The notes under the pieces are model-generated. The model did not search any database. It saw only the letters and a program-made list of their open reading frames with translations, and was not told the DNA's origin. From Occallatibacter sp. (lineage in GTDB: Bacteria; Acidobacteriota; Terriglobia; Terriglobales; Acidobacteriaceae): a stretch of DNA of 45,128 nucleotides. The stretch spans positions 1 to 45,128 of the forward strand of contig JARLFZ010000022.1 of assembly GCA_031296305.1 (NCBI GenBank). Direction: 5' to 3'. Numbering within the stretch: the first letter of the stretch is position 1; each line of letters opens with the position of its first letter. Of this stretch, positions 12,591 to 43,519 are shown piece after piece. Position numbers and translations under genes: made by a program.

Positions 12591-15500
12591 ATGAGAGCTC
12601 TTGTCAGACTGTTGGGCAGTTTTGCAGTTCTATGCGCGGTGTGCATCTGTGCGCCGGGCGGGCTGCGTGCGCAGGGCTTAGGAAGCATCAATGGCACGGT
12701 GACTGATTCGAGCGGCGCGGTAGTCGCCGGAGCTGAAGTCACGGCCACCCAGGCTGCTACGGGAATTTCGACTCAAACCACAACCGGCAGCGAAGGCACA
12801 TTCGTTTTTCCCATTCTGTCGCCTGCTGTGTACAACATCAGCGCTACTCGATCGGGATTTCAAAAGTACACACAGACCGGCGTAGAACTTCGCGCTGACG
12901 CCGCGGTCACGGTGAACATCTCCCTCAAAACCGGCAACGCAACCGAGACGGTGACGGTGACCGCCGAAAGCGCCCAGATCGACGTGACGACGGGCACTTT
13001 GTCGCAGGTCATCGGCACCTCGCAAGTGAGCGATCTGCCGTTGAATGGCCGTAATGCTTCCGCCCTGACGGAAGAGGTCGCAGGCGTCACCTTCGCACCA
13101 GGGGGACAGGCGGATCAAGGCAACACCAAGACCTTCCCGGCAGCCGTTACCATTTCGGCCAATGGCACGTTTGTGGGCCAGACCAACTACATGCTCGACG
13201 GCGGCAACAACGTAGACGAGTACACCAACGTCAATGAGCCGTTCCCCATGCCCGATGCGCTGCAGGAATTCAGCGTAGAGACCAACAACTACAGCGCGCA
13301 ATACGGCCAGAACGCCGGCGCCGTGGTCAATATCATCACCAAGAGCGGCGCCAAGCAATATCACGGCGACGTGTTTGAGTTTGTCCGGAACCGGGCCTTC
13401 AACGCCGCCAACCCCTTCACCTGGAAGCCCGCAATAAGCACCTTGGTCGTCGATCCGCTCCATCGCAACCAGTTTGGCGGCACGGTGGGCGGACCCCTCG
13501 ATATTCCCCACTTTCTCCGCAGCGACAAGTCGTTCGGCTTCTTCGGTTACCAGCGGACGATCAATCATGCGGCCTCCACTGCCGGATCCTCCACCATCCT
13601 TCTGCCGACCATCGCCCAGGCGGGCGCGAACTCGTCGGGCGCAGCGCCCGGAACCAACAACCTCGTTTTCGCCTCGTGCGTCATTGATCCGTTTGATCCC
13701 AACGGAACCACGTATATGGTTGCCGATGCATCTTGTCCGCAACTACCACCAGGCGGAACTGCGGTTTACGCCAGTTCGCACACCTGGAAGCCGTCTGCCA
13801 TGAGCCCCGTGTCGCAAAAATTCTTCAGTTACGTCCCCGCGTTGTCCTCCACCGGCGCCGTTGCTCCCTTCGCACTTCCGAACAACTTCACGATGGCGGA
13901 GATCACGGCGCGTGCAGACCAGGAACTGACCCCGAGAGACAAAATATTTGAGCGCTACTTCTCCGACGCGTTCATCCTGCAAGGCTTGGAAAACACCGCG
14001 AACATTCTCACTCTTGCCAACGGGGCTTCGAACCACTATTACAATGCGCTGATCTCCGAAACGCACACCTTCACCGCGCACATCGTCAATAACCTCATCG
14101 TCAGCGACCAAATCCAGAACGACGGCCGCGGACCGGTTGCCAGCGCTGTCAGCGTGGCTGACTTTGGCGTCACCGGTGTATATCAGCCGCCGCTTAAGCA
14201 GATCTCCCAGATTCAGGTGCCGGGCTACTTCACAGTCTCCACGCTCGGCCAGGCCACCTTCCGCAGAGGGAACTATACGCTCACCGACGATATCCATTTC
14301 CTGTGGGGCAAGCACAACATCGACGCCGGCTATCATTTCGAACTGTCGAAGGTCGACGTCGATAACCTCAACTCACTGCCCGGTCAGTTCAACTTCAGCG
14401 CCACGGGCTCTGGCGATGCCGCCGCCAGCTTCGAGTTTGGGTATCTCGCGCAAATGAACCAGGCAAACGGCCAGCTTTTCAAACCCCGCGGCAAGTTTCA
14501 GGGAGCCTACGTGCAGGATAGCTGGAAAGCGACTCCTCGCCTGACGCTGGACTACGGTGTGCGCTGGGAGCCGTTTGTGCCATGGCATGAGAGAGACGGA
14601 CGTATGGGTGGCTTCAACCCGACGCTCTGGGCATCGAACACTCACTCCGCGAAATACCCCCTTGCGCCAGCCGGAATGCAATTCTCCGGCGATAGCGGTT
14701 TCAACTCCAACGGTGCCGCGTCGGCTTATGGCCACTTTATGCCCAGGCTGGGCTTTGCCTGGGATGTCTTCGGCAATGGCAAAACCAGCGTGCGTGGCGG
14801 CACCGGCCTGTTCTTTGACAGCCGCATCAACAGCACACTTTTCAATATTTACTCAAACGGCGCGCCGTTCCTTACTTCCGTGTCGCTGAGCTCTACATTC
14901 TCGACGACCAATAAAGCCGCCGACGTCAACATGACCTTCGTCAACCCATACGGCTCCGTGGGCGTCACGAATCCATTCCCCGCCCCCGCAGTGCCTCCGC
15001 CAACCGCGCCCATCAGCGCCTCCAATAACTGGCTGACCTTCGACCCGTTCAAAGGCTTCCAGGATCCGCGCACTGTCGACTACAACCTGGCCGTGGAACA
15101 GCAGCTCAGTAGCAGCTTCTCTCTGCGTGCCGCGTATGTGGCCGAGCAAAGCCGCCACGAGTGGCAGGACCTCGAACTCAATCCCTGGACCAGCTCGACG
15201 ACTGCCATTTACGATCTGGCGGGATGTTCGACGACCAACAGTTGCTATCCGCAGGGGAACTTCATCACAGCGGCCAACACCGGCGGTAACACCAACTACA
15301 ACTCCTTGCAGATTTCGGCCGAACAGCGCATGAAATATGGCCTGACGTTGCTGTTCAACTACACCTGGTCAAAGGCGCTCGACAACATGCCTTACAACCA
15401 GGCAGCTACCTCTATCGGCGGCGGCAACTCGTTCGTTTATCCGATTACCATGGCCAATTTCAAAGCTCTGGACTACGGGCCGACGGAATTCGATCACCAA

Positions 15501-16064
15501 AATGTGGTCGCGTCTTCCTATGTGTACAAGGAGCCGAAGGTCATGAACGACGCTCCTGCCGTTCTCCGTTATCTGGTCAACGGCTATGAGACCACGGGCC
15601 TCGTCCAGCACCGCTCAGGCGACCCGCTGACGATTACCTCAAGCTCAAACAACAATTCCGGTGTGCACCAGAATCGCGATCGCGCCGTGTATAGCGGCAG
15701 CGGCGCTTACGGTGGCACGGAATGCACGGGCCAGATAAATTGCAGAAACTTCCTGAATCCGGCAGCCTTTTCCGTCAACCCCGCCGGTACATTCGGGAAC
15801 GTCAAGAAGGGTTCGTTCAGGGGCCCGGCCTACACCGATTGGGACGCCAGCATCGCGCGCGTGTTCCCATTCGGCGAGCGGACATCTCTGCAGTTCCGCG
15901 CCGAGTACTTTAACCTGTTGAACCACACCAACGCTGGCGACCCCGCCACCGGCCTGGGAGGGTCGTTTGGCAGAGTCACGAGCACCGCTCCTCAGAACGT
16001 GAGTCCCGCCAGCGTCGCAAACGATCCGCGCATCGCGCAGTTTTCGCTGAAGTTGCTTTTCTAA
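12591..16064 (+). CDS. TonB-dependent receptor, Oar-like, with carboxypeptidase-regulatory-like domain
   Basis: 1157 residues, with AGGAGG seven bases before the ATG. The signal peptide at 1-28 ends GGLRAQG. Residues about 30-115 are a CarboxypepD_reg-like beta-sandwich (GSINGTVTDSSGAVVAGAEV), then comes a plug (about 125-240, with SDLPLNGRNASALTEEVAGV and the ANGTFVGQTNYMLDGGNNVD segment). The rest is a large beta-barrel that ends in the outer-membrane terminal Phe (FSLKLLF). This architecture is massively expanded in acidobacteria, and members are thought to import oligosaccharides or other large nutrients using TonB energy. The GH43 gene directly downstream points to a glycan substrate. 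A strong hairpin follows the stop. Confidence 0.93.
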   Translation: MRALVRLLGSFAVLCAVCICAPGGLRAQGLGSINGTVTDSSGAVVAGAEVTATQAATGISTQTTTGSEGTFVFPILSPAVYNISATRSGFQKYTQTGVELRADAAVTVNISLKTGNATETVTVTAESAQIDVTTGTLSQVIGTSQVSDLPLNGRNASALTEEVAGVTFAPGGQADQGNTKTFPAAVTISANGTFVGQTNYMLDGGNNVDEYTNVNEPFPMPDALQEFSVETNNYSAQYGQNAGAVVNIITKSGAKQYHGDVFEFVRNRAFNAANPFTWKPAISTLVVDPLHRNQFGGTVGGPLDIPHFLRSDKSFGFFGYQRTINHAASTAGSSTILLPTIAQAGANSSGAAPGTNNLVFASCVIDPFDPNGTTYMVADASCPQLPPGGTAVYASSHTWKPSAMSPVSQKFFSYVPALSSTGAVAPFALPNNFTMAEITARADQELTPRDKIFERYFSDAFILQGLENTANILTLANGASNHYYNALISETHTFTAHIVNNLIVSDQIQNDGRGPVASAVSVADFGVTGVYQPPLKQISQIQVPGYFTVSTLGQATFRRGNYTLTDDIHFLWGKHNIDAGYHFELSKVDVDNLNSLPGQFNFSATGSGDAAASFEFGYLAQMNQANGQLFKPRGKFQGAYVQDSWKATPRLTLDYGVRWEPFVPWHERDGRMGGFNPTLWASNTHSAKYPLAPAGMQFSGDSGFNSNGAASAYGHFMPRLGFAWDVFGNGKTSVRGGTGLFFDSRINSTLFNIYSNGAPFLTSVSLSSTFSTTNKAADVNMTFVNPYGSVGVTNPFPAPAVPPPTAPISASNNWLTFDPFKGFQDPRTVDYNLAVEQQLSSSFSLRAAYVAEQSRHEWQDLELNPWTSSTTAIYDLAGCSTTNSCYPQGNFITAANTGGNTNYNSLQISAEQRMKYGLTLLFNYTWSKALDNMPYNQAATSIGGGNSFVYPITMANFKALDYGPTEFDHQNVVASSYVYKEPKVMNDAPAVLRYLVNGYETTGLVQHRSGDPLTITSSSNNNSGVHQNRDRAVYSGSGAYGGTECTGQINCRNFLNPAAFSVNPAGTFGNVKKGSFRGPAYTDWDASIARVFPFGERTSLQFRAEYFNLLNHTNAGDPATGLGGSFGRVTSTAPQNVSPASVANDPRIAQFSLKLLF

Positions 16065-16070
16065 CTCACA

Positions 16071-16099
16071 GGGGAGTGCGGCGCTCAGCCGCACTCCCC
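16071..16099 (+). terminator. Strong hairpin after the TonB-dependent receptor
   Basis: A perfect 11-bp stem (GGGGAGTGCGG at 16071-16081 pairing with CCGCACTCCCC at 16089-16099) closes a 7-base loop, 7 bases after the receptor stop. There is only a short TT downstream, so it may act as a terminator or as an mRNA-stabilising hairpin that lowers expression of the GH43 gene relative to the receptor. Confidence 0.6.
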
Positions 16100-16237
16100 G
16101 TTACATTGCACGCTCCGACTTCGGTATCCGGAGCGCTCGTTGCAGTAGTTTGTCACTGGTCGAGTGCCGAATCGGGCGGCCATGAGAGGCCGCTTTTATC
16201 TCTGAAATGCAACCGAGCAGAACGTAAAGGCCACTCG

Positions 16238-17869
16238 ATGATCGCGACGGCAGGATGGAAATCTCAGGACCGGCTAATCAGGAACTTGCTGGCGATTTGC
16301 CTCTCCGCACTGCCTCTCCTCGCGGAGTTGCCCGTATTGACCGTCCCTGCCCAGGCGCAAGCATCGTCGCCTGCGACAGAGGGCGTCTACCACAACCCCA
16401 TTCTCTTCGCCGACTACTCCGATCCCGATGTGATCCGCGACGGCGCTAACTACTATCTCGTCGCTTCCACCTTCCATTTCGTTCCCGGAATTCCCATTCT
16501 GCAATCCACTGATCTGGTGCATTGGACCATCGTCGGTCACGTCGTCGATCGCCTCACCATGGACCCGCGCTACAGCATGGTGGGCGGCAATCGCTACGGC
16601 AAAGGCGTGTGGGCGCCTTCCATCCGGAAACACGACGGGCTTTATTACGTCTACTTCCCCACGCCCAATGAGGGCATCTTCGTCTCGACCGCAACCAGGA
16701 TCACCGGGCCGTGGAGCGATCCCGCCGTCGTCATCGCGAAACCCAATCTCGAGGACCCCTGCCCTTTCTGGGACGACGACGGCAAGGCCTATTTGATCCA
16801 TTCCGTCACCGGCGCCGGGCCGCTCATCCTGCACCGCATGTCGCCTGACGGCAAGCATGTGCTCGATCAAGGAAAGATCGTCGTGCAGGATCCCGAGCAT
16901 CTGCCTACTCTCGAAGGCCCCAAGCTTTACAAGCGCGACGGCTACTACTACATCTTTGCGCCCTTCGGCGGCGTTGGCGTGGGATCGCAGGTGGTGTTGC
17001 GCTCGCGCCAGATTTACGGCCCTTACGATTTCCGCGTAGTGCTGGCGCAGGGCTCAACCAAGATCAACGGGCCGCACCAGGGCGGTTATGTTGAAACTCC
17101 CGATGGTGAAGGCTGGTTTGTGCACTTTCAGTCCGACGGCGCCCATGGCCGCATTGTGCATCTCGAGCCAGTGCGCTGGCACGACGATTGGCCCTTCATC
17201 GGCGCCGATCCTGCCGAGGAAACCGCTGGGCAACCCGTACCCTCCGGCCCCATTCCCGATCATTCCACCGCGCCGTCCGAACAGCATCCGCAAACCTCCG
17301 ACGATTTCAATGAGGCGGTGCTGGGTCCGCAATGGGAGTGGAACCATAATCCCGACGACGCCCACTGGTCTCTCGGCGCGCGCCGCGGCTATCTGCGCCT
17401 GATCCCCATGCCCGCGGATGGCTTGCTCGCCGCGCGCAACACGCTCACGCAGTGCATGCAGGACAATTCGTTCGAGTTCACCGTGCGCGTGGACTTGAAT
17501 GCGATGAAAGCTGGCGTGCATGCGGGACTCGCCATGTTTGAGGAATCCGCCAGCGGCCTTGAAATTGTGCAGTCGGGCGATGCGCGGCGGCTCGATTTCT
17601 TCCATCTTTCGGAGCACGTCGCCGGTCCCGAGCTGACTCAATCGGCGATTCAGCTCCGCGTGCGCGTCAGCGGCGATCAGGCGCTTTATTTCTACTCGCT
17701 TGATAATGGCAAGACGTTCCAACAACTCGGCGCGGCCACGCCCATCCGCTTCAGTTGGTGGAAAGGCTCGCGGCCCGCACTGTTCGCCTACAGCACGCTC
17801 AACTCCGATCCCGGCGCCGTCGATTTCGACTGGGTCCACTACCAGGCGCTGGCTCCAAATCCCTGGTAG
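16238..17869 (+). CDS. Secreted GH43 glycosidase (beta-xylosidase/arabinosidase type)
   Basis: 543 residues from the ATG at 16238. The N-terminus is a signal peptide (1-41, ending PAQAQA). The five-bladed propeller spans about 48-360 with the GH43 catalytic acids: D62 (ADYSDPDVIRDG, general base), D173 (LEDPCPFWDDDGKAYL) and E226 (TLEGPKLYKRDGYYYI, general acid). Residues about 345-540 form the C-terminal concanavalin-like beta-sandwich usual in GH43 beta-xylosidases (DDFNEAVLGPQWEWNHNP). Expected substrates are xylo- or arabino-oligosaccharides from plant cell walls, cleaved in the periplasm or outside. Its position after the TonB receptor suggests the pair handles one glycan. Exact specificity cannot be read from sequence. 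Confidence 0.9.
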   Translation: MIATAGWKSQDRLIRNLLAICLSALPLLAELPVLTVPAQAQASSPATEGVYHNPILFADYSDPDVIRDGANYYLVASTFHFVPGIPILQSTDLVHWTIVGHVVDRLTMDPRYSMVGGNRYGKGVWAPSIRKHDGLYYVYFPTPNEGIFVSTATRITGPWSDPAVVIAKPNLEDPCPFWDDDGKAYLIHSVTGAGPLILHRMSPDGKHVLDQGKIVVQDPEHLPTLEGPKLYKRDGYYYIFAPFGGVGVGSQVVLRSRQIYGPYDFRVVLAQGSTKINGPHQGGYVETPDGEGWFVHFQSDGAHGRIVHLEPVRWHDDWPFIGADPAEETAGQPVPSGPIPDHSTAPSEQHPQTSDDFNEAVLGPQWEWNHNPDDAHWSLGARRGYLRLIPMPADGLLAARNTLTQCMQDNSFEFTVRVDLNAMKAGVHAGLAMFEESASGLEIVQSGDARRLDFFHLSEHVAGPELTQSAIQLRVRVSGDQALYFYSLDNGKTFQQLGAATPIRFSWWKGSRPALFAYSTLNSDPGAVDFDWVHYQALAPNPW

Positions 17870-30968: not shown

Positions 30969-32645
30969 ATGAACGTGCACCAAAAGACCGCAATCTTCCC
31001 CCGCCGCGGGCTCCTCTTCGCCCTTCCGCTCTGCCTGGCCCTCTCCGCGGTTGCCCCGGCCCAAAAACCAACTGCGCCGCCAACCGCCCTCGCCCCCTCG
31101 GCAGCCCCGTCCGGCTGCACTCTGCCCGCGGGCCCGTCCCACGCTGACGCCAAGGCGCCATCCAAGATCACGCCGGAGCAGGCCCAGAAGCTCTTCGCGC
31201 TGGTCGACGTGCTCATCAAGTTCTCCTCCGACGAAACCGGCCTGCCCATCAAAAGCTCCGTCAAGCGCCAGCTCACTTCCCGTGACGAGGTTGAAAAGTA
31301 CCTCGAAGAAAAATTCAACGAGGATCAGGGCACCAAGCGCTTGCAGCGCGACGAAATCGTCCTCAAGAAGTTCGGCCTCCTCGACCGCGATTTCGAGCTC
31401 AAGCCGTTTCTGCTCGCGCTCCTCAAGGAGCAGATCGAAGCCTATTACGACTCCAAGACCAAGACCGTGAATATGCTCGATTGGGTGGGACCCGATGACG
31501 AACAGCCGGTCCTGGCCCACGAGCTCACCCACGCCTTGCAGGACCAGCACTCTAATCTCGAAAAATGGAACGACCAGACTCCCGATGACGTCTCCACCGA
31601 CTCCGCCGGCGACAACGATCATCTTGCCAAAGATGAGATGGACACCGCGCGTGACGCCGTGGCGGAAGGCCAGGCCACCGTCGTCATGTGGGATTGTGAG
31701 CTCAAACCGATGGGCAAGAGTCTCATCAAGGATCCTGAGGTGCTGGACCTGGTCAAGAATCAAATGAGCGGCGCGGAAGACTCGCCCGTGATGGCGCGCG
31801 CGCCCCTGCTGCTTTCCGAATCCATGCTTTTTCCTTACCGTGAGGGCATGAGCTTCGAACAGGACGTGTGGATGGATCAGGGCCAGATGGCGGCCTTCGC
31901 CGGCGCGCTCGATCGCCCGCCCACTTCCAGTTGGGAAATTATCAATCCCCGCGAATACGAGAAAAGGCACATCCCGGCCATTCCGCTTCTGCCCAACATT
32001 CACCCGCTCACCGATCCCACATACAAGCCGTACGACATCGGCCAGGTGGGGCAGCTCGACGTGCACATTCTCTCCGAGCTGCTCGGCAGCGACAACGCCG
32101 CCCGCGACCTCACTCCTGCATGGAACGGCGGCCTCTACTGGGCCGGGCAGTTGCGCAGCGCCACCACGCCCGCCGCGCAGGCCGATACCGCCTCCATCGG
32201 TCTCTTCTATTTGTCTATTTGGAAGAACGCCGACTCCGCACAGGTCTTCGCCAGAATCTACTCGAACACTCTCGGCCGCAAGTATTCTCACGTGGGCGAG
32301 CTTTCGTCCGGAACATCTGCCGCCAGCGACGGCTCGGTGGAGCACCTGTTCACCACCAATGAAGGCCCCGTCCTCATCACCACGCGCGGCAAAATGGTCT
32401 TCATCGCAGAGAGTTTCCCCCTGCCGCTGGCGCGCCAGCTCACCGCGCTCATCTTCGACGCCCAGGGCGGCGGACCGATGCACATGGCGAATGCTCCGCT
32501 CGATCTTCACACGCCTCCTCTCTCGCCAGACGCGCCCCGCGGTGCCCTCACCTCCGATCTTGTACACTTCTTTGCCGAAGCCGGCGTGATGAAGTCCGTA
32601 GTCGACGCGGAAAGACTGGCGCTGCAAAAGTCACTCGCCCCGTAG
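30969..32645 (+). CDS. Secreted HExxH (gluzincin-like) protein of unknown role
   Basis: 558 residues with a signal peptide (1-31, ending AVAPAQK) and a Pro/Ala-rich linker. An HExxH motif is in VLAHELTHALQDQHSNLE, and about 40 residues later DAVAEGQATVVMWD has the Glu expected as third zinc ligand. This spacing fits gluzincin metallopeptidases. Upstream helices (LLALLKEQIEAYYDSKTKTV) and SESMLFPYREGMSFEQ downstream recur in acidobacterial homologues annotated only as hypothetical. The C-terminal 200 residues look like a separate beta-rich domain. A periplasmic or secreted metalloprotease is likely; the substrate is unknown. Confidence 0.75.
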   Translation: MNVHQKTAIFPRRGLLFALPLCLALSAVAPAQKPTAPPTALAPSAAPSGCTLPAGPSHADAKAPSKITPEQAQKLFALVDVLIKFSSDETGLPIKSSVKRQLTSRDEVEKYLEEKFNEDQGTKRLQRDEIVLKKFGLLDRDFELKPFLLALLKEQIEAYYDSKTKTVNMLDWVGPDDEQPVLAHELTHALQDQHSNLEKWNDQTPDDVSTDSAGDNDHLAKDEMDTARDAVAEGQATVVMWDCELKPMGKSLIKDPEVLDLVKNQMSGAEDSPVMARAPLLLSESMLFPYREGMSFEQDVWMDQGQMAAFAGALDRPPTSSWEIINPREYEKRHIPAIPLLPNIHPLTDPTYKPYDIGQVGQLDVHILSELLGSDNAARDLTPAWNGGLYWAGQLRSATTPAAQADTASIGLFYLSIWKNADSAQVFARIYSNTLGRKYSHVGELSSGTSAASDGSVEHLFTTNEGPVLITTRGKMVFIAESFPLPLARQLTALIFDAQGGGPMHMANAPLDLHTPPLSPDAPRGALTSDLVHFFAEAGVMKSVVDAERLALQKSLAP

Positions 32646-36008: not shown

Positions 36009-36058
36009 CCGCGCAGCCATTGACACTCTTTTGCCCCTCGTCTATAAACCGCCCTAGG

Positions 36059-37516
36059 ATGTCTCGCTCTCTCCTCATCTTCGCCAAACTCGCGCTCGCC
36101 GTCGCCACCGGCGTGCTTCTGCGCTTTGTTCTCGACCTCCATCCCGTCTGGTGGCTGGTCTGGATCGTTCCCGCTCTGCCGCTTCTCATCGCGATCCGTT
36201 TCAAACCGCGCGAAGCGCGCTGGATGGTCGCTCCCGCCGTTGTCATCGGCGCAAGCTGCAACTTCCACTACTACCGCCTGGTAATGCCGCTGTTTGCGGT
36301 GATCCTCGTCATCGGCCTGCAATCCTGGCTCTGGATCTTCCTGATCTTCGCGACCCGCCGCGTCATCGTCCGCTACCAGTCCTGGTGGACCGTCCTCGTC
36401 TACCCCGTTCTTTGGGTCGCGGTAGATTCGCTGTGCGCAGCACTCCTTCCCGACGGCAATTGGGGCAGCCTCGCCTATTCGCAAGGCGACAACCTGCCCG
36501 TCCTTCAAATCGCTTCCCTCTTCGGCGTCTCCGGTGTGCTGTTTCTCGTCACGCTCGTTCCTTCCACGGTCGCCGTCGCCGTTGCTTATGGCCGCTCATT
36601 GCGCCGCGGCTGGATTGCCTACGCACTCACTTCACTTCTCCTAGTCGCGTCGCTCGCGTATGGCTATGCACGCCTGCACCAGCCTGTCACGGGCGCTGCA
36701 ACTACCTTCGGGATTGTCTCGATCGACAATCCCATCGGCCCGCACGCCTCCGCGGCCTACGCCTCCAACATCCGCTCCGGATATGACAGCCTTGTGCGGT
36801 CTCTCGCCTCGCAGGGCGCGCAGATCGTCGTCCTCCCCGAAAAAATCGCGGTGCTCGTTCCCGCAAACGTCTCCAATTGGCAGCAGCATTTCAGCGCTCT
36901 GGCACTGCAAAATCGCGTCTGGCTCGAGGTGGGCATCGGCATTGACGACGGCCGCAGCCCCACCAACTGGGCGTGGCTCTTCACGCCACAGGGCGATCTC
37001 GTCTCCAGCTACGAAAAGCACCACATGGCCCCGCCCGAGCGCCGCGATCATTACGTTTCCGGTACCGAGTACAACGTCTTGACTGTCGAAGGGCAGACTT
37101 ACGGCCTCGCCATTTGCAAGGACATGCACTTCGCCGCATTCGGCCGCGAATACGGCCTTCGCCACGCCGCGGTCATGCTCGTCCCCGCATGGGATTTCGC
37201 CTACCTCGATGGCTGGCTCGAAGCGCGCACCACCGTCTTCCGCGGCGTCGAGAACGGCTACTCCATCGTGCGCGCCTCGCGCGAGGGGCTGCTCACCGCG
37301 AGTGACCCCTACGGCCGCATCCTTGCCGAAATGCCCAGCAGCGAACTTCCCGGCCGCTCCCTGCTCGCAACGATCACTGTCACCGGTCCCGTGTCGACCC
37401 TCTACACCTGCATCGGCAACCTGTTTGGCTGGCTTTGTGTAGCTGCCGCCGCACTGTTTCTTGTGCTTGGGCGAACTCAGCAGCACAAATCATCCCCAGT
37501 GCCCCGGAAAGCTTAA
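36059..37516 (+). CDS. Apolipoprotein N-acyltransferase-like nitrilase-superfamily membrane protein
   Basis: 485 residues from the ATG at 36059. About six membrane helices in the first 205 residues, then a carbon-nitrogen hydrolase domain (about 212-450), then a final helix (about 460-478). This is the Lnt topology. The triad is present as E261 (VVLPEKIAVL), K320 (SYEKHHMAPPER) and C353 (AICKDMHFAAFG). Lnt acylates the N-terminal Cys of lipoproteins in the inner membrane. The loop around the Cys (ICKDMHF instead of ICYE..) and the short membrane part differ from canonical Lnt, so this may be a paralogue with another amine or acyl acceptor. A housekeeping lnt elsewhere would support that. Confidence 0.7.
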   Translation: MSRSLLIFAKLALAVATGVLLRFVLDLHPVWWLVWIVPALPLLIAIRFKPREARWMVAPAVVIGASCNFHYYRLVMPLFAVILVIGLQSWLWIFLIFATRRVIVRYQSWWTVLVYPVLWVAVDSLCAALLPDGNWGSLAYSQGDNLPVLQIASLFGVSGVLFLVTLVPSTVAVAVAYGRSLRRGWIAYALTSLLLVASLAYGYARLHQPVTGAATTFGIVSIDNPIGPHASAAYASNIRSGYDSLVRSLASQGAQIVVLPEKIAVLVPANVSNWQQHFSALALQNRVWLEVGIGIDDGRSPTNWAWLFTPQGDLVSSYEKHHMAPPERRDHYVSGTEYNVLTVEGQTYGLAICKDMHFAAFGREYGLRHAAVMLVPAWDFAYLDGWLEARTTVFRGVENGYSIVRASREGLLTASDPYGRILAEMPSSELPGRSLLATITVTGPVSTLYTCIGNLFGWLCVAAAALFLVLGRTQQHKSSPVPRKA

Positions 37517-37708: not shown

Positions 37709-39466
37709 ATGCAATCGCAAGCAAGTGACTGCGAGTCTATTCGCGTCGCGGGTCCATCCTCGCTATCGTTTGTCCGGGCCCCGTTTGCCGGCGCTTCATT
37801 GATTCGCGCCTCGTTGATCCTGCTGGTTGCCGGTGGCGCCACGCTGCTGCTCGCCGGCTGCGGTCCAAGGCGGGTCCGCGCCGATTTCACTAATTACGAA
37901 AGCGCTTATGCCGTCACCTCCAACCGCGAGCTGCTGCTCAACCTGGCGCGCCTCGAGCAGCACGACCCCACTTATTTCTTCAAGCTCGGCCAGATCTCTT
38001 CGAGTTACCGCATGCAAGCCACTCTCACCGGCACGGGCGCCCTCACCGCGCAGGGAACGGTCCCGGGAGGATCCCTTCCGACGGGAAGCGGCACGCCCGG
38101 CTTCATCTATGAAAACGATCCCTCCTTCAGCTTTGTGCCGGTGAACGACCAGGCCAATGCCACGCTCCTGCTACAGCCGGTCCCTGAAAATGTGTTCTAT
38201 AGCCTTTTCCAGCAGGGCTGGCGCATCGATCAGCTCTTCCGGCTAATGGTGGACCGCATTGAAGTCACCCTCCCTCCCGATCCAAGCAGCACAACTGACA
38301 AAGGCTGCCGTGTCGAGGTCATTCGCAACGTGCCGCCGGCGTCCATTGACGGTCCGGATTTCGCCCAATCCGCTCGCGACCTCGACAGATATGTGACTTT
38401 TCTCCGGGTCAGCGCGGTGGTCTACGCCCTGCAAAAACACGGCCTCCTGCTATTGCGCGGAACCAATAACTTTGGACCGATCGACAAGGCTTCCTTCATC
38501 CCCAATAACGCCATAGAGGGCGGTGACACAGCGTCTAAAAGCTCATCCCTTCCCACCGCCAAAGACTTCAACGATGCCGCGGCAAAGAGCCAGGAATGGG
38601 AACTGCAAGATGCGGACGCCCGTGGCAAGGGCGGAAAATGGGTCCTGGGCCAGAAGACTCTCGTTCCCAAGTTTCAATTGAATACAATGGTTCCCGACGC
38701 GAGCGAGTCGGTGGATCAAATCTACGGGCAAAGTGTAAAGACCGTCGAAGACAGCCTCCGCAACGACTTGCTTCCCAACGACCCGAGCGTGAGCGAGTTG
38801 ACCAACGCCCCTGAGCTCACCGACACTCTGGAGGTTCTGTTCAGTGGTTTTGCCATTGGCGGTTCTGCCACCGATCAGGACACAGGCAAAGGACCGTGCA
38901 CCTCGTCGGGGCATGGCATTGTCACGTCGCATCTGGTGCTGCGCTCGATCATTGGATTGATGGCTGCGGCGGCCCAGGAACAGGCGTTCTACGACGCTTT
39001 GGCAAAGTCCGGAAAAGACCCTGAAATCCGCATGGACAAAGACGACCTGGTTACAAGGATCCACGTAGGTTTGTTGATCGCGCAGCAAATAAAGCCCGAT
39101 CATGATGATCCCGACTACCTGAAGCGCGCAGCGGCCGTGGCCGGCAAGACATTCTCCTTTTCCCAGCTAGTCCCAGCCATCGAACGGCTCCCTGTCCTGC
39201 GGCTCACCTGGCCCGGCGAAGTCAAACCGCCCGTAGGGCACTCCGCTTCCAGTGCCAAAGAGATAGGTCTTGCCGTGAACTATAAGGGCAAAGAATATGT
39301 CGTCGCCGACGTCGATTCCGAAGGCGTGAATCCCGCTGAATACGCCTTGGAGAACGAAACCTGGAACCGCGACATGTTCCGTCTCATCAACCAGCTCTCC
39401 TCGCAGGTGACCGTCGACACCTCCAAGTACCAGCAGCAGGAGATTCTACAACTGCGCACGAATTAA
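37709..39466 (+). CDS. Predicted lipoprotein of unknown function
   Basis: 585 residues, with GAGAGG upstream of the ATG. The N-terminus is unusually long: the lipobox LLLAGC51 follows about 30 hydrophilic residues, so the true start may be further in. The mature part begins GPRRVRADFTNYESAY and contains LLLNLARLEQHDPTYFFKLGQI and PENVFYSLFQQGWRIDQLFRLMVDRI. I recognise these as features of a hypothetical-protein family but know no function. It ends 34 bp before the SLOG-SLATT gene and reads in the same direction, so co-transcription with the putative conflict system is possible. No promoter or terminator is visible between them. Confidence 0.7.
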   Translation: MQSQASDCESIRVAGPSSLSFVRAPFAGASLIRASLILLVAGGATLLLAGCGPRRVRADFTNYESAYAVTSNRELLLNLARLEQHDPTYFFKLGQISSSYRMQATLTGTGALTAQGTVPGGSLPTGSGTPGFIYENDPSFSFVPVNDQANATLLLQPVPENVFYSLFQQGWRIDQLFRLMVDRIEVTLPPDPSSTTDKGCRVEVIRNVPPASIDGPDFAQSARDLDRYVTFLRVSAVVYALQKHGLLLLRGTNNFGPIDKASFIPNNAIEGGDTASKSSSLPTAKDFNDAAAKSQEWELQDADARGKGGKWVLGQKTLVPKFQLNTMVPDASESVDQIYGQSVKTVEDSLRNDLLPNDPSVSELTNAPELTDTLEVLFSGFAIGGSATDQDTGKGPCTSSGHGIVTSHLVLRSIIGLMAAAAQEQAFYDALAKSGKDPEIRMDKDDLVTRIHVGLLIAQQIKPDHDDPDYLKRAAAVAGKTFSFSQLVPAIERLPVLRLTWPGEVKPPVGHSASSAKEIGLAVNYKGKEYVVADVDSEGVNPAEYALENETWNRDMFRLINQLSSQVTVDTSKYQQQEILQLRTN

Positions 39467-39500
39467 GTGCGGCGCTGTCACGCTGTATCATCAGGCGAGT

Positions 39501-41003
39501 ATGCCCCTCTATTCCAAGGGAACCAATCCGCTCGTGCAGCTTCCTGAGGTGCTGGCCGTCGGCTTTACCGGTCATCGCAAGGTTCCCTACGAGACCAAAA
39601 GCCGTCAGGTGATTCGCGACTTCCTGGCGCAGCAAAAGGAATCGCACCACGGCGTGATGTACGGCATCTGCTCGGCCGCAGCGGGCGGCGACCAGCTCTT
39701 TGCGGAGAGCTGTCTCGAGCTCGACATCCCCCTGCGCATCCTCCTGCCCCGCCCCGCCGAGCACTTTCGCGCTGACTTCGACGAAGCGTCGTGGCAGCGA
39801 ACCGTGCGCATCATGGAAAGCGCCATCTCCGTTGAAGTCACCGGCAGGCACGAAGCCCGGAACGAGCAATACTACGACTGCGGCATTCAAACCGTGGCCG
39901 AGAGCCAGCTTCTGGTGGCGCTGTGGGACGGCCAGCCGTCGCGCGGCACCGGTGGCACCCAGGAGATCGTCTCCTACGCCAGGAAAACCGGCCATCCCGT
40001 CGCCTGGATTCACAGCGAAACCGGCGTGCTGCAATTTCTCAACAAAGAAGCTCTCAGGCTCATCGACACCAGCTCCGAGCTTGAGTTTCTCAACGGACTG
40101 CCCGACGTAGGCGTCACCCCGCCCGGCGCCAACTCCCGCGACCTGGCGCAGGCGTGGCTTGATAAAGCCGATGGCAACGCCAATCGTTTTGCGCCCCAGG
40201 CGCGCCGCGTGGCCTCCGTTCCTATCGTCTACACCGCGGCCGCCGCGGTCATGGCCGGCGTGGCGCCCGAGATTCCCGGCGCCGCACCATGGCTGGGCAT
40301 CAGCGCCGCGCTCGGCGTTTTCTCTCTCGCCATGCCCGCTGTCCTTCGCCTGCACGTCCGCCAGGCGCTGTGGGCGCGCACCCGCACCGCGGCTGAAATC
40401 GCCCGCTCGGTTCTCGTTACCTGGCGCACGCCCCGGCCCTATGAAGTCATCGGCGCGGAAGCCGCTCCCTGGCTCTCCGGAATTCTGCGCTCCCTCAACT
40501 TCCTCAAGATGGAAGATAATCATTGCGCCGAAACTCCGCTTTCAGATTTCAAGCAGGAGTATCGCCGCGACCGCGTGGCTCACCAGATTGAATATTTTTC
40601 CCGCCAGGCGCGCAAGGCCGAGCGCCAGGAGCGGCGCTACGCAACGCTGGGATGGGTCTGCGGCGCAGTAGCCACGCTCATCGCCGTCGTCTGTCTATCC
40701 GGCGGACTGCAATGGCTTGCCAATCACGGTTTCTCGGGCCGGCAATGGCTGGCCTTCACTATGTCGGCCTTGTTTGAAATCGCCACCATGGCCGGCGCTT
40801 TCGCAGCCGTTAAAGATTGCGCGCGGCGTCGCCGACGTTATCGCGAGCTGAGCCACGCCTTGCGCCGCTGGGACACTCAGTTGGAAGCACTCAACACCTG
40901 GAATTCCGTGCTCCGCGTGGTGGAGCGCATCGAAAGAGCGCTGATCGTGGAGATCTTCGAATGGCGCTCTCTGGTGCTGGGCGCGGCCTCGCATAAGGGA
41001 TAA
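39501..41003 (+). CDS. SLOG domain fused to four-helix SLATT-like membrane domain
   Basis: 500 residues. Residues 18-175 form a Rossmannoid SLOG (LOG/DprA/TIR-related) domain: AVGFTGHRKV, ICSAAAGGDQLFAESCLE, LRILLP, VALWDGQPSRGTGGTQE. These domains bind or cut nucleotide ligands. Four membrane helices follow as two pairs, about 238-256 with 262-283 and 382-402 with 414-437. The segments around them (RQALWARTRTAAEIARSV; RRDRVAHQIEYFSRQARKAE; RRRYRELSHALRRWDTQLE) fit SLATT, the two-helix effector unit paired with SLOG and SMODS in predicted conflict systems. A duplicated SLATT is my inference. A ligand-gated pore is the expected role. The next gene, a CapV-like patatin, starts 4 bases after its stop. 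Confidence 0.75.
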   Translation: MPLYSKGTNPLVQLPEVLAVGFTGHRKVPYETKSRQVIRDFLAQQKESHHGVMYGICSAAAGGDQLFAESCLELDIPLRILLPRPAEHFRADFDEASWQRTVRIMESAISVEVTGRHEARNEQYYDCGIQTVAESQLLVALWDGQPSRGTGGTQEIVSYARKTGHPVAWIHSETGVLQFLNKEALRLIDTSSELEFLNGLPDVGVTPPGANSRDLAQAWLDKADGNANRFAPQARRVASVPIVYTAAAAVMAGVAPEIPGAAPWLGISAALGVFSLAMPAVLRLHVRQALWARTRTAAEIARSVLVTWRTPRPYEVIGAEAAPWLSGILRSLNFLKMEDNHCAETPLSDFKQEYRRDRVAHQIEYFSRQARKAERQERRYATLGWVCGAVATLIAVVCLSGGLQWLANHGFSGRQWLAFTMSALFEIATMAGAFAAVKDCARRRRRYRELSHALRRWDTQLEALNTWNSVLRVVERIERALIVEIFEWRSLVLGAASHKG

Positions 41004-41007
41004 CACC

Positions 41008-42168
41008 ATGAAAAGAATTCTTTCTCTGGATGGCGGCGGCATACGCGGCGTCTTCACCCTTGAGGTCCTGGTCAAAATCGAGGAACTGCTCCGCGACTTT
41101 TACGCAAAAACAGATCCGGAAAAAGCCAAGACCTTGGTCCTTCGCGACCACTTCGACTTCCTCGCCGGCACCTCCACCGGCGCCATTATCGCCACCGGCC
41201 TCTGCTGGGGAATGCCCGTCAAAGAACTTCGCGAACTTTACCTCAAAGAAGGCCGAAAGATGTTTGAGAAGGTTTCCTGGCGCAACGTGACCGATAAGCT
41301 CTCGTCGCTCTACGATCCCGGACCTCTCTCGGATTTCCTCAAGCGCATCTTTGTAGAAAAAGACGGCACGGTAGCCACGCTCGCCAGCCCGCGTCTGCGC
41401 GATGGCCCCAAAAAGAACCTCCTTATGGTGGTCGTGCGTAACCACACCACCGGTTCGGCGTGGCCCCTCACCAACAATCCCGATGCAAAATACAACCACC
41501 CTGACCGGCCCGACGACAACCGTCAGATTCCGCTCTGGCAACTGGTCCGCGCCAGCACCGCCGCACCCGTGTTTTTCCCGCCTGAAAGGGTGATCCTCGG
41601 GGGCACGGAAAGTGCCTTTGTCGACGGCTCCATCACGCCCTATTCCAACCCCGCGTTGATCGCCGCGCTTACCGCCATCCTGCCCGGCTACCAGATCAAC
41701 TGGCCCGCCGGTCCTGAAAACCTTCGTCTGGTTTCTGTCGGCACCATCGCTTTTTCTTCCGAGGTTCCTCTCGGCGATCCCAAGGTGCGGTTTGGCCTTC
41801 TGGCTGCGCGCATTCCCAACGCCATCCTGCAAACCACCAGCGCCTTGATGCAGTCCATCGGCTGGCAGCAGGATTTTCTCTGCCGCTGCCTCGGCGACTG
41901 TCTCTTCGCGGAAAAGCCGGAAGGCGAACTGCTCGATACCGAGGTTGGCAATCTGCTCGCGGGAAACGTACTGAGCTGTCCGCCTCCGGGTCGAAGCTGG
42001 TTCAGCTACGTGCGTTATAACCGCACGTTTCGAAAAAAGGAAATGATCAAAATCCTCGAAAACGACCCCGCCCTCAAGCGCATCGATGCCGTCAACGCCA
42101 TCCCGCGCCTGAGCGACATCGGAAAGCAATACGCTGAAGAAAACGTGAGGATCGAGCACCTGATCTGA
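41008..42168 (+). CDS. CapV-like patatin phospholipase
   Basis: 386 residues. Patatin fold with the oxyanion motif D8-GGGIRG, catalytic S56 in AGTSTGAIIATG and catalytic D206 in FVDGSITPYSNP, plus RASTAAPVFFPP, typical of CBASS-type phospholipases (CapV). Active members hydrolyse membrane phospholipids and kill or arrest the cell when triggered by a cyclic nucleotide. No CD-NTase, Cap2/Cap3 or other cyclase lies in the flanking DNA. The gene is almost certainly co-translated with the SLOG-SLATT gene (4-nt gap), so the signal may come from or through that protein. Some patatins of this type have general lipid-metabolic roles, which is the main alternative. Confidence 0.9.
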   Translation: MKRILSLDGGGIRGVFTLEVLVKIEELLRDFYAKTDPEKAKTLVLRDHFDFLAGTSTGAIIATGLCWGMPVKELRELYLKEGRKMFEKVSWRNVTDKLSSLYDPGPLSDFLKRIFVEKDGTVATLASPRLRDGPKKNLLMVVVRNHTTGSAWPLTNNPDAKYNHPDRPDDNRQIPLWQLVRASTAAPVFFPPERVILGGTESAFVDGSITPYSNPALIAALTAILPGYQINWPAGPENLRLVSVGTIAFSSEVPLGDPKVRFGLLAARIPNAILQTTSALMQSIGWQQDFLCRCLGDCLFAEKPEGELLDTEVGNLLAGNVLSCPPPGRSWFSYVRYNRTFRKKEMIKILENDPALKRIDAVNAIPRLSDIGKQYAEENVRIEHLI

Positions 42169-42171
42169 GAA

Positions 42172-42258
42172 CAGGGAGCGAGGGAGCAAGGGAGCGAGAG
42201 AGCAAGGAAGCGAGGAAGCGAGGGAGCAAGGGCGCAAGGGAGCAAGAAAACAAGAAAC
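42172..42258. repeat. GGAGCGAG / GGAGCAAG tandem tract
   Basis: Roughly ten 8-bp units (GGAGCGAG, GGAGCAAG, GGAAGCGA) start 3 bases after the patatin stop. They are the reverse complement of the TTCCCTCG units at 19721-19785. Confidence 0.65.
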
Positions 42259-42267
42259 AGCTGTTGC

Positions 42268-42300
42268 CCCATCCTTTCGCGCTTTTTGCGAAAGGGTGGG
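42268..42300 (+). terminator. Hairpin after the patatin gene
   Basis: A 13-bp stem (42268-42280 with 42288-42300, one G-T wobble) closes a T-rich 7-base loop, GCTTTTT. No T-run follows. It could end the SLOG-SLATT-patatin transcript or be another dispersed hairpin repeat. Confidence 0.5.
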
Positions 42301-42349: not shown

Positions 42350-43519
42350 ATGCCGCAAGCCCCCACCGTCCTCACCGCTCGCCGCCTCTACGACGGCTCC
42401 CGTCTCTACGACCTCCCCATCGTCGTCCTTGACGGCGGCCGCATCGCCTCCATCTCCACGCGTACATCGAGCGCCGCACCCGCCGGCGCCACCATCCTTG
42501 ACTTCCCTGAAGCCACGCTCGCTCCCTCTTTCTTCGACATCCACATCCACGGCGCTGCCGGCCACGACGCGATGGAGGCCACTCCCGAAGCTCTCGCCGC
42601 CATGGGCGCATTTCTTGCCTCGCGGGGTACCGCTCGCTTCCTCGCTACCACCGTCACCGCGCCCATGGATGCGACTCTACGCGCCGTCGCAGGTCTTGCT
42701 CGCCTCATTGACCAGGCGCCTTCGACCACCGCCGCCGTCCCGCTCGGCATACATCTTGAAGGGCCGTTCCTCTCGCACTCCAAGCGCGGCGTGCATCCGC
42801 CCGCATTCCTTCTCGAGCCCGACATCGCCCTCTTCGACCGCATCTATGACGCTGCCGAAGGCCACGTCCGCCTCATGACTCTCGCGCCCGAGCTGCCCGG
42901 CGCGCCCCAGCTCGCCGCTCACGCCACCGCGCGCGGCGTCCGCGTCTCGCTCGGCCACTCCAACGCCACCGCCGCTGAAACCCGCGCGGCCATTGACGCT
43001 GGAGCCACCAGCGCCACGCACACCTTCAACGCCATGCGCCCGCTCGACCACCGCGAGCCCGGCATTCTCGGCACCGTGCTGACTGACGATTCCCTCTTCG
43101 CCGAGCTCATCTGCGACGGCATCCACTCCGTGCCCGAAATGACGAAGCTCTGGTGGCGTGCCAAGGGCCCCGAGCGCGCGATCCTCGTCACCGACGCCAT
43201 GAGCGCCACCGGCATGCCCGATGGCGATTACAGCCTCGGCGGGCTCACCGTTCAGGTCGCGAACGGCCGCGCCATGTCTGAAGGCGTCCTCGCCGGCAGC
43301 GTGCTCACTCTCGACCGCGCGCTGGCTAACTTCCTCGCATTCACCGGCGCAACACTTGAGCAGGGGCTGCGTCTGCTCACTGGCAACCCCGCGACGCTCA
43401 CGGGCTTTGAAAGCGAAGCCGGCAGCCTCGCTCCCGGCAGCCCCGCTAACCTCGTAGCCGTCAGCCCCGACGGCCACCTCGCCGCGTCGTTCGTCAACGG
43501 CGTTCCGGTCTCGACGTAA
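42350..43519 (+). CDS. nagA: N-acetylglucosamine-6-phosphate deacetylase
   Basis: 389 residues from the ATG at 42350, with AGGAAT upstream. Amidohydrolase barrel: the first metal motif FFDIHIHGAAGHD, the metal Glu in HLEGPFLSHSKRGVH, LGHSNATAAETRAAID, ATHTFNAMRPLDHREPG, ICDGIHSVPEM and the catalytic Asp in LVTDAMSATGMPDG. It removes the acetyl group from GlcNAc-6-P in the cytoplasm, feeding amino-sugar catabolism or peptidoglycan recycling. No nagB, transporter or regulator gene is adjacent, so it stands alone here. Confidence 0.93.
   Translation: MPQAPTVLTARRLYDGSRLYDLPIVVLDGGRIASISTRTSSAAPAGATILDFPEATLAPSFFDIHIHGAAGHDAMEATPEALAAMGAFLASRGTARFLATTVTAPMDATLRAVAGLARLIDQAPSTTAAVPLGIHLEGPFLSHSKRGVHPPAFLLEPDIALFDRIYDAAEGHVRLMTLAPELPGAPQLAAHATARGVRVSLGHSNATAAETRAAIDAGATSATHTFNAMRPLDHREPGILGTVLTDDSLFAELICDGIHSVPEMTKLWWRAKGPERAILVTDAMSATGMPDGDYSLGGLTVQVANGRAMSEGVLAGSVLTLDRALANFLAFTGATLEQGLRLLTGNPATLTGFESEAGSLAPGSPANLVAVSPDGHLAASFVNGVPVST

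Follow-up and report, generated by a model that had tools for sequence, protein, structure and literature searches.

Burroughs, Aravind and colleagues reportedly predicted SLOG/TIR-SLATT nucleotide systems in 2015. In later papers, SLATT is described as a nucleotide-responsive pore (PMC7159879) and predicted to be a membrane effector regulated by ADP-ribose derivatives, with TIR adjoining SLATT in phages (PMC9503650). For Thoeris, PMC11204291 describes a pocket selective for 3′ cyclic ADP-ribose (3'cADPR) in the SLOG domain of ThsA, which binds TIR-made cyclic ADP-ribose. Here, we describe a three-gene cassette encoding a lipoprotein, a SLOG-SLATT protein, and a CapV-like patatin in a 45,128-nucleotide stretch (hereafter, the window) of contig JARLFZ010000022.1 from Occallatibacter sp. 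(Acidobacteriaceae). We consider the chances about even that the cassette would act in abortive infection, with a TIR-made signal leading to membrane attack by the SLOG-SLATT protein and the patatin.

The three genes lie on the plus strand. The first (37709..39466) encodes a lipoprotein of 585 residues with a predicted lipobox (LAGC51), the second (39501..41003) a 500-residue protein with a SLOG domain and two tandem SLATT-type units, and the third (41008..42168) a CapV-like patatin phospholipase of 386 residues with an intact Ser56/Asp206 dyad. The presence of this gene set, proposed in a first-pass annotation of the window from its sequence, was confirmed. The SLOG domain (residues 16–190; 39546..40070, plus strand) was delimited by a 21-row alignment and a predicted fold. 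Its conserved loops in the alignment are GFxGHR (21–26), AxGxD (60–64), and GxGGxxE (149–155), and the fold was nearest to those of YpsA, DprA, and ShosA, followed by molybdenum cofactor carriers and LOG, and then by TRPM and ThsA. The domain was unmatched by every sequence profile tried. Pfam detected SLATT_1/DUF4231 (PF18181) at residues 354–488 (40560..40964, plus strand) with 27.7 bits against a cut-off of 26.3, and the NCBIfam SLATT_1 model scored slightly under its cut-off (39.5 against 41 bits). The SLATT-type units have two transmembrane helices each, span residues of about 212–309 and 347–497, and both contain hydrophobic 19-residue stretches (237–282, 381–399, and 419–437). The proposed fusion of SLOG to SLATT-like helices was therefore upheld by the predicted SLOG structure, found no backing from SLOG sequence profiles, and was corrected to two SLATT-type units. 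The protein is predicted to be a nucleotide-gated membrane effector.

In the patatin, S56, D206, and D8–G11 were invariant in a 20-row alignment, and the GxSxG nucleophile, the Asp-Gly dyad, and the DGGG oxyanion motif are those of a predicted phospholipase. Its closest solved relatives were CapV (8zr9, E 2.4e-20), and it matched the PADLOC model 'Effector, Phospholipase', presumably a CBASS (cyclic-oligonucleotide-based anti-phage signaling system) model, at 7.3e-41. It scored 116.7 bits with CBASS_lipase (NF041079; cut-off, 200), and is thus a relative of CapV and not an equivalog, and 61.3 bits with the anti-phage phospholipase model DS2_1 (cut-off, 400). The cassette resembles CBASS in having this CapV relative but differs from it in that the patatin is below both cut-offs and in the lack of a cGAS/DncV-like nucleotidyltransferase (CD-NTase) beside the effector. 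No CD-NTase neighbor was found among the window open reading frames (ORFs) scanned with Pfam, namely 19 of the larger ones (ORFs such as those at about 16–24 kb are outside the scan), and SMODS (PF18144) had no match in the genome, which is 84% complete, in agreement with the first-pass annotation. SMODS was present in one of four genomes tested, G111, at a distance of 1.7 Mb from its cassette. A purine-rich short repeat with GAGGGAGCAAG-like units was spotted by eye at 42169–42260, between the patatin gene and a nagA-like gene.

A genome scan yielded 56 loci, 15 of which (L002–L016) encode a relative extending into the SLATT part; together with the window and L080 of genome G111, they form a set of 17 loci, in which L014 is cut by the contig end. 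The patatin gene lies directly 3′ of the SLOG-SLATT gene in 13 of the 16 assessable loci, L014 not being assessable, so the expected conservation of the pair was observed. A full-length lipoprotein gene adjoins the pair in 11 of the 17 loci, which agrees with its assignment to the unit. It precedes the pair in nine loci and stands behind the patatin in L010 and L011, indicating that the gene order varies while the set is kept. C-terminal lipoprotein remnants were found in L008 and L009, and no lipoprotein in L002, L012, L016, and L014 (the last as far as read). Among 200 genomes of the order, SLOG-SLATT and the lipoprotein occur in the identical four, including the Occallatibacter genome, and the distribution is patchy; the patatin (E ≤ 1e-60) occurs in these four and three more. 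In two of the latter, G165 and G076, other SLOG-like genes stand beside the patatin (of TPR-S type in G165). The protein distances of the three cassette proteins correlated in 11 complete loci (r 0.64–0.79; none of 2000 Mantel permutations reached such values), and the ratio of nonsynonymous to synonymous substitution rates (dN/dS) was 0.07–0.35 in 11 comparisons from four loci, some with saturated dS. The three genes are a co-inherited cassette, and the cassette is under purifying selection.

Two loci from metagenome-assembled genomes of Opitutia (Verrucomicrobiota), L008 and L016, branch inside the Acidobacteriaceae SLOG-SLATT tree, which reflects either cross-phylum transfer or mis-binned contigs. 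In G111, the same three transposase-type ORFs, which we take to be IS66-like, flank the cassette in the same orientation like a composite transposon (L080:1111-3507 and 14409-16805). This locus also encodes a second, divergent SLOG-SLATT protein (L080:6279-8036, minus strand), back to back with the lipoprotein-SLOG-SLATT-patatin set; its gene adjoins a TIR-beta-propeller gene.

The cassette lipoprotein is predicted from its sequence to be exported. It branches off distantly within a larger family of unannotated lipoproteins. Another member, distantly related to it, is encoded at L107:9748-10833 (NEQLLLNLVRLRYRDTP...), and seven plasmid records also carry this larger family. At the class level, the lipoprotein profile matched five of 399 genomes, the fifth match being to a shorter, distantly related lipoprotein that lacks the partners. 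Its co-occurrence with SLOG-SLATT in the same four genomes, its adjoining position, and its retention in the unit even behind the patatin would fit an envelope-triggered system, in which the exported lipoprotein would respond to phage entry or damage at the cell surface by releasing the SLATT protein directly, with nucleotide binding just tuning the response. We consider this improbable, given the absence of a Pfam or NCBIfam domain in the lipoprotein and the occurrence of TIR and SLOG-SLATT without a lipoprotein in L012 and, as far as read, in L014.

TIR genes were found in 11 of the 16 relative loci (L003, L004 (twice), L006, L008–L012, L014, L015, and L080), and in seven of these loci they lie directly upstream on the same strand. 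These are TIR-nSTAND1-WD40 genes in L008–L011, with the lipoprotein remnants in between in L008 and L009, TIR-DUF4185 genes in L012 and L014, and a TIR-Sel1 gene preceding the lipoprotein gene in L004. The L003 TIR and one of the two L004 TIRs are SIR2-TIR fusions adjoining an nSTAND1 gene. The L006 call is based on our own TIR profile (E 7e-16), and the L015 TIR was seen by Pfam only and missed by our profile. The L010 TIR matched PADLOC ThsB models (best E 4.7e-6), and the L008–L011 TIR retains the segment SKWCFAEF, which presumably corresponds to the region around the catalytic glutamate in NADase TIRs. Five genomes contained 22 TIR_2 matches in 24.4 Mb, a density at which the 238 kb read for the 16 loci should hold about 0.2 TIR. 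This is a rough yardstick, since some of the loci are closely related to each other and four of those genomes are themselves carriers.

These relatives point to TIR as the source of the signal, and the suggestion of the first-pass annotation that SLOG itself makes the signal for both effectors was not borne out. A self-contained cassette without need for a TIR, whose SLOG would be a LOG-like enzyme making or destroying the signal or a sensor of a phage-changed nucleotide, appears rather unlikely: the TIR genes near the cassette far exceed the background, and in its fold the domain best matches YpsA, DprA, and ShosA, not LOG. The SLOG glutamate is offset by one relative to the LOG motif, so that catalysis is not predicted, which also counts against a self-contained cassette.

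In two loci, a TIR-DUF4185 gene is followed directly by the SLOG-SLATT gene (L012:5909-9464 and L014:5771-9197), a Thoeris-like layout reduced to two genes, with neither lipoprotein nor patatin (L014 being cut by the contig end). In other phyla, genes for a SLOG-SLATT relative, a TIR protein, and a WD40-annotated protein follow one another on a Caballeronia plasmid. On a conjugative Rhizobium plasmid, DUF4231 and patatin genes lie within 9 kb together with a TIR gene on the opposite strand.

For the TIR-driven abortive-infection system, the following course may be proposed. Upon phage infection, a TIR enzyme, in this genome the product of one of five TIR genes outside the window, would make a nucleotide derived from NAD. 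The nucleotide would bind the SLOG domain, and binding would likely turn the tandem SLATT helices into an open pore. This part of the proposal is based on the analogy with the ThsA SLOG and on the predicted role of SLATT. The CapV-like patatin, switched on by the same event, would likely cut membrane lipids as a second effector. If its export signal is used, the lipoprotein must function beyond the cytoplasm. From the periplasm or outer membrane, it may sense the envelope, anchor both effectors, or hold them back; this role is the least certain step. An extended version, in which the lipoprotein and the cytosolic SLOG receptor would jointly gate the four-helix SLATT pore and the patatin, such that the cell would destroy its own membrane only when a TIR signal coincides with a breach of the envelope, is speculative and seems unlikely to us.

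The Occallatibacter genome itself contains five TIR_2 genes on other contigs, one of which shares 87% identity with the TIR beside the L004 cassette across 136 residues of its TIR region. A search of this genome with the TIR-nSTAND1 part of L010 gave one match, in the nSTAND part, on contig C146. Several observations weigh against the TIR-driven system. No TIR was detected in the 45-kb window by our own profile, which had missed the L015 TIR, nor by that profile in L002, L005, L007, L013, and L016 (7–17 kb read each), and because no TIR was found in the window or these five loci, the signal source in this genome is an assumption. The closest TIR in the genome, of which 84% is covered, is outside any defense locus; its neighbors are, we believe, lpxA/fabZ-like. 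The TIR-first loci L008–L011 all belong to one clade and are therefore not independent. SLOG-SLATT occurs without patatin in L009, L012, and L016, and G154 (L099) has the patatin without SLOG-SLATT, lipoprotein, or any SLOG-like gene beside it. The Rhizobium case is one of four patatin plasmid records examined out of 250, and the other three lack such partners. Because neither Pfam nor NCBIfam has a family for the lipoprotein, its place in the mechanism is a guess.

The surroundings of the cassette also weigh against the TIR-driven system. The flanking ORFs scanned were an apolipoprotein N-acyltransferase-like (lnt-like) gene with LNT_N and CN_hydrolase domains (36020..37516, plus strand), a nagA-like amidohydrolase gene (42350..43519, plus strand; likely ATG start at 42350, ORF-list start at 42296), both neighbors outside the unit, and other ordinary genes. 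These ordinary-looking flanks, together with the location of the lnt-like lipoprotein acyltransferase gene 192 bp upstream, would suit a membrane-maintenance or envelope-stress operon, with a lipoprotein and a phospholipase beside an lnt-like gene, rather than immunity. This explanation is very unlikely, since the cassette occurs in only four of the 200 genomes of the order, TIR, nSTAND1, and SIR2-TIR genes are found near the cassette in relatives, and the flanking genes tested are not common to other loci, with one exception in L002. No lnt-like homologue was found in the ORFs of L001–L057, nor by tblastn in L002–L016 and L080. The neighbor in common is L002:433-1941, near the L002 cassette, a 78% homologue of the window gene at 30969-32645. 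The window itself, in the flanking ORFs scanned, shows no defense island.

The cassette resembles Thoeris in the fusion of a SLOG-type sensor to an effector and in the TIR genes near it in most relatives; Thoeris also has a membrane effector in place of SIR2-SLOG, the TM-macro ThsA, as described in PMC11204291. It differs in that Pfam shows neither SIR2 nor macro in the SLOG-SLATT protein, in its SLATT helices, separate patatin, and predicted exported lipoprotein, and in the lack of a TIR (ThsB) gene in the operon, none being detected in the window by our profile. The predicted SLOG/TIR-SLATT systems share SLOG as a sensor, but no description of patatin, lipoprotein, and tandem SLATT together was found in a search that did not extend to the 2015 founding paper. 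TPR-S-SLOG and patatin pairs, found in Proteobacteria and in one order-mate (L100), have an adjoining patatin of the same subfamily and a SLOG-like stretch; the patatin model matched with E 1e-95 to 1e-105 in five loci from Proteobacteria, with 1e-50 in L050, a cut locus, and with 4e-89 in L100. They differ in having TPR-S and no SLATT match, as seen by Pfam in L038, L045, L053, and L100, and in having no lipoprotein by our profile. SLOG-like genes stand beside such a patatin in L037, L038, L045, L053, L054, and L100.

The same literature search gave no paper on SLATT, SLOG, and patatin or on TPR-S, SLOG, and patatin, and none of those listed for DUF4231/SLATT/patatin/TIR domain pairs was about such a set by its title. 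As PADLOC did not name a system either, the earlier remark that this is not a named system still stands. Neither the domains nor the TIR-SLATT idea is new; we found no description of tandem SLATT-SLOG combined with patatin and lipoprotein, and part of this set may stand in the 2015 paper.

The TIR-coupled relatives (L004 and L008–L012) offer a direct way to test the signal question in a laboratory host. To our knowledge, the exported lipoprotein has no counterpart in Thoeris or CBASS. If the proposed system is real, an exported lipoprotein would join a nucleotide-signaling cassette, and TIR-nucleotide immunity would extend from NAD depletion to a two-effector membrane attack.
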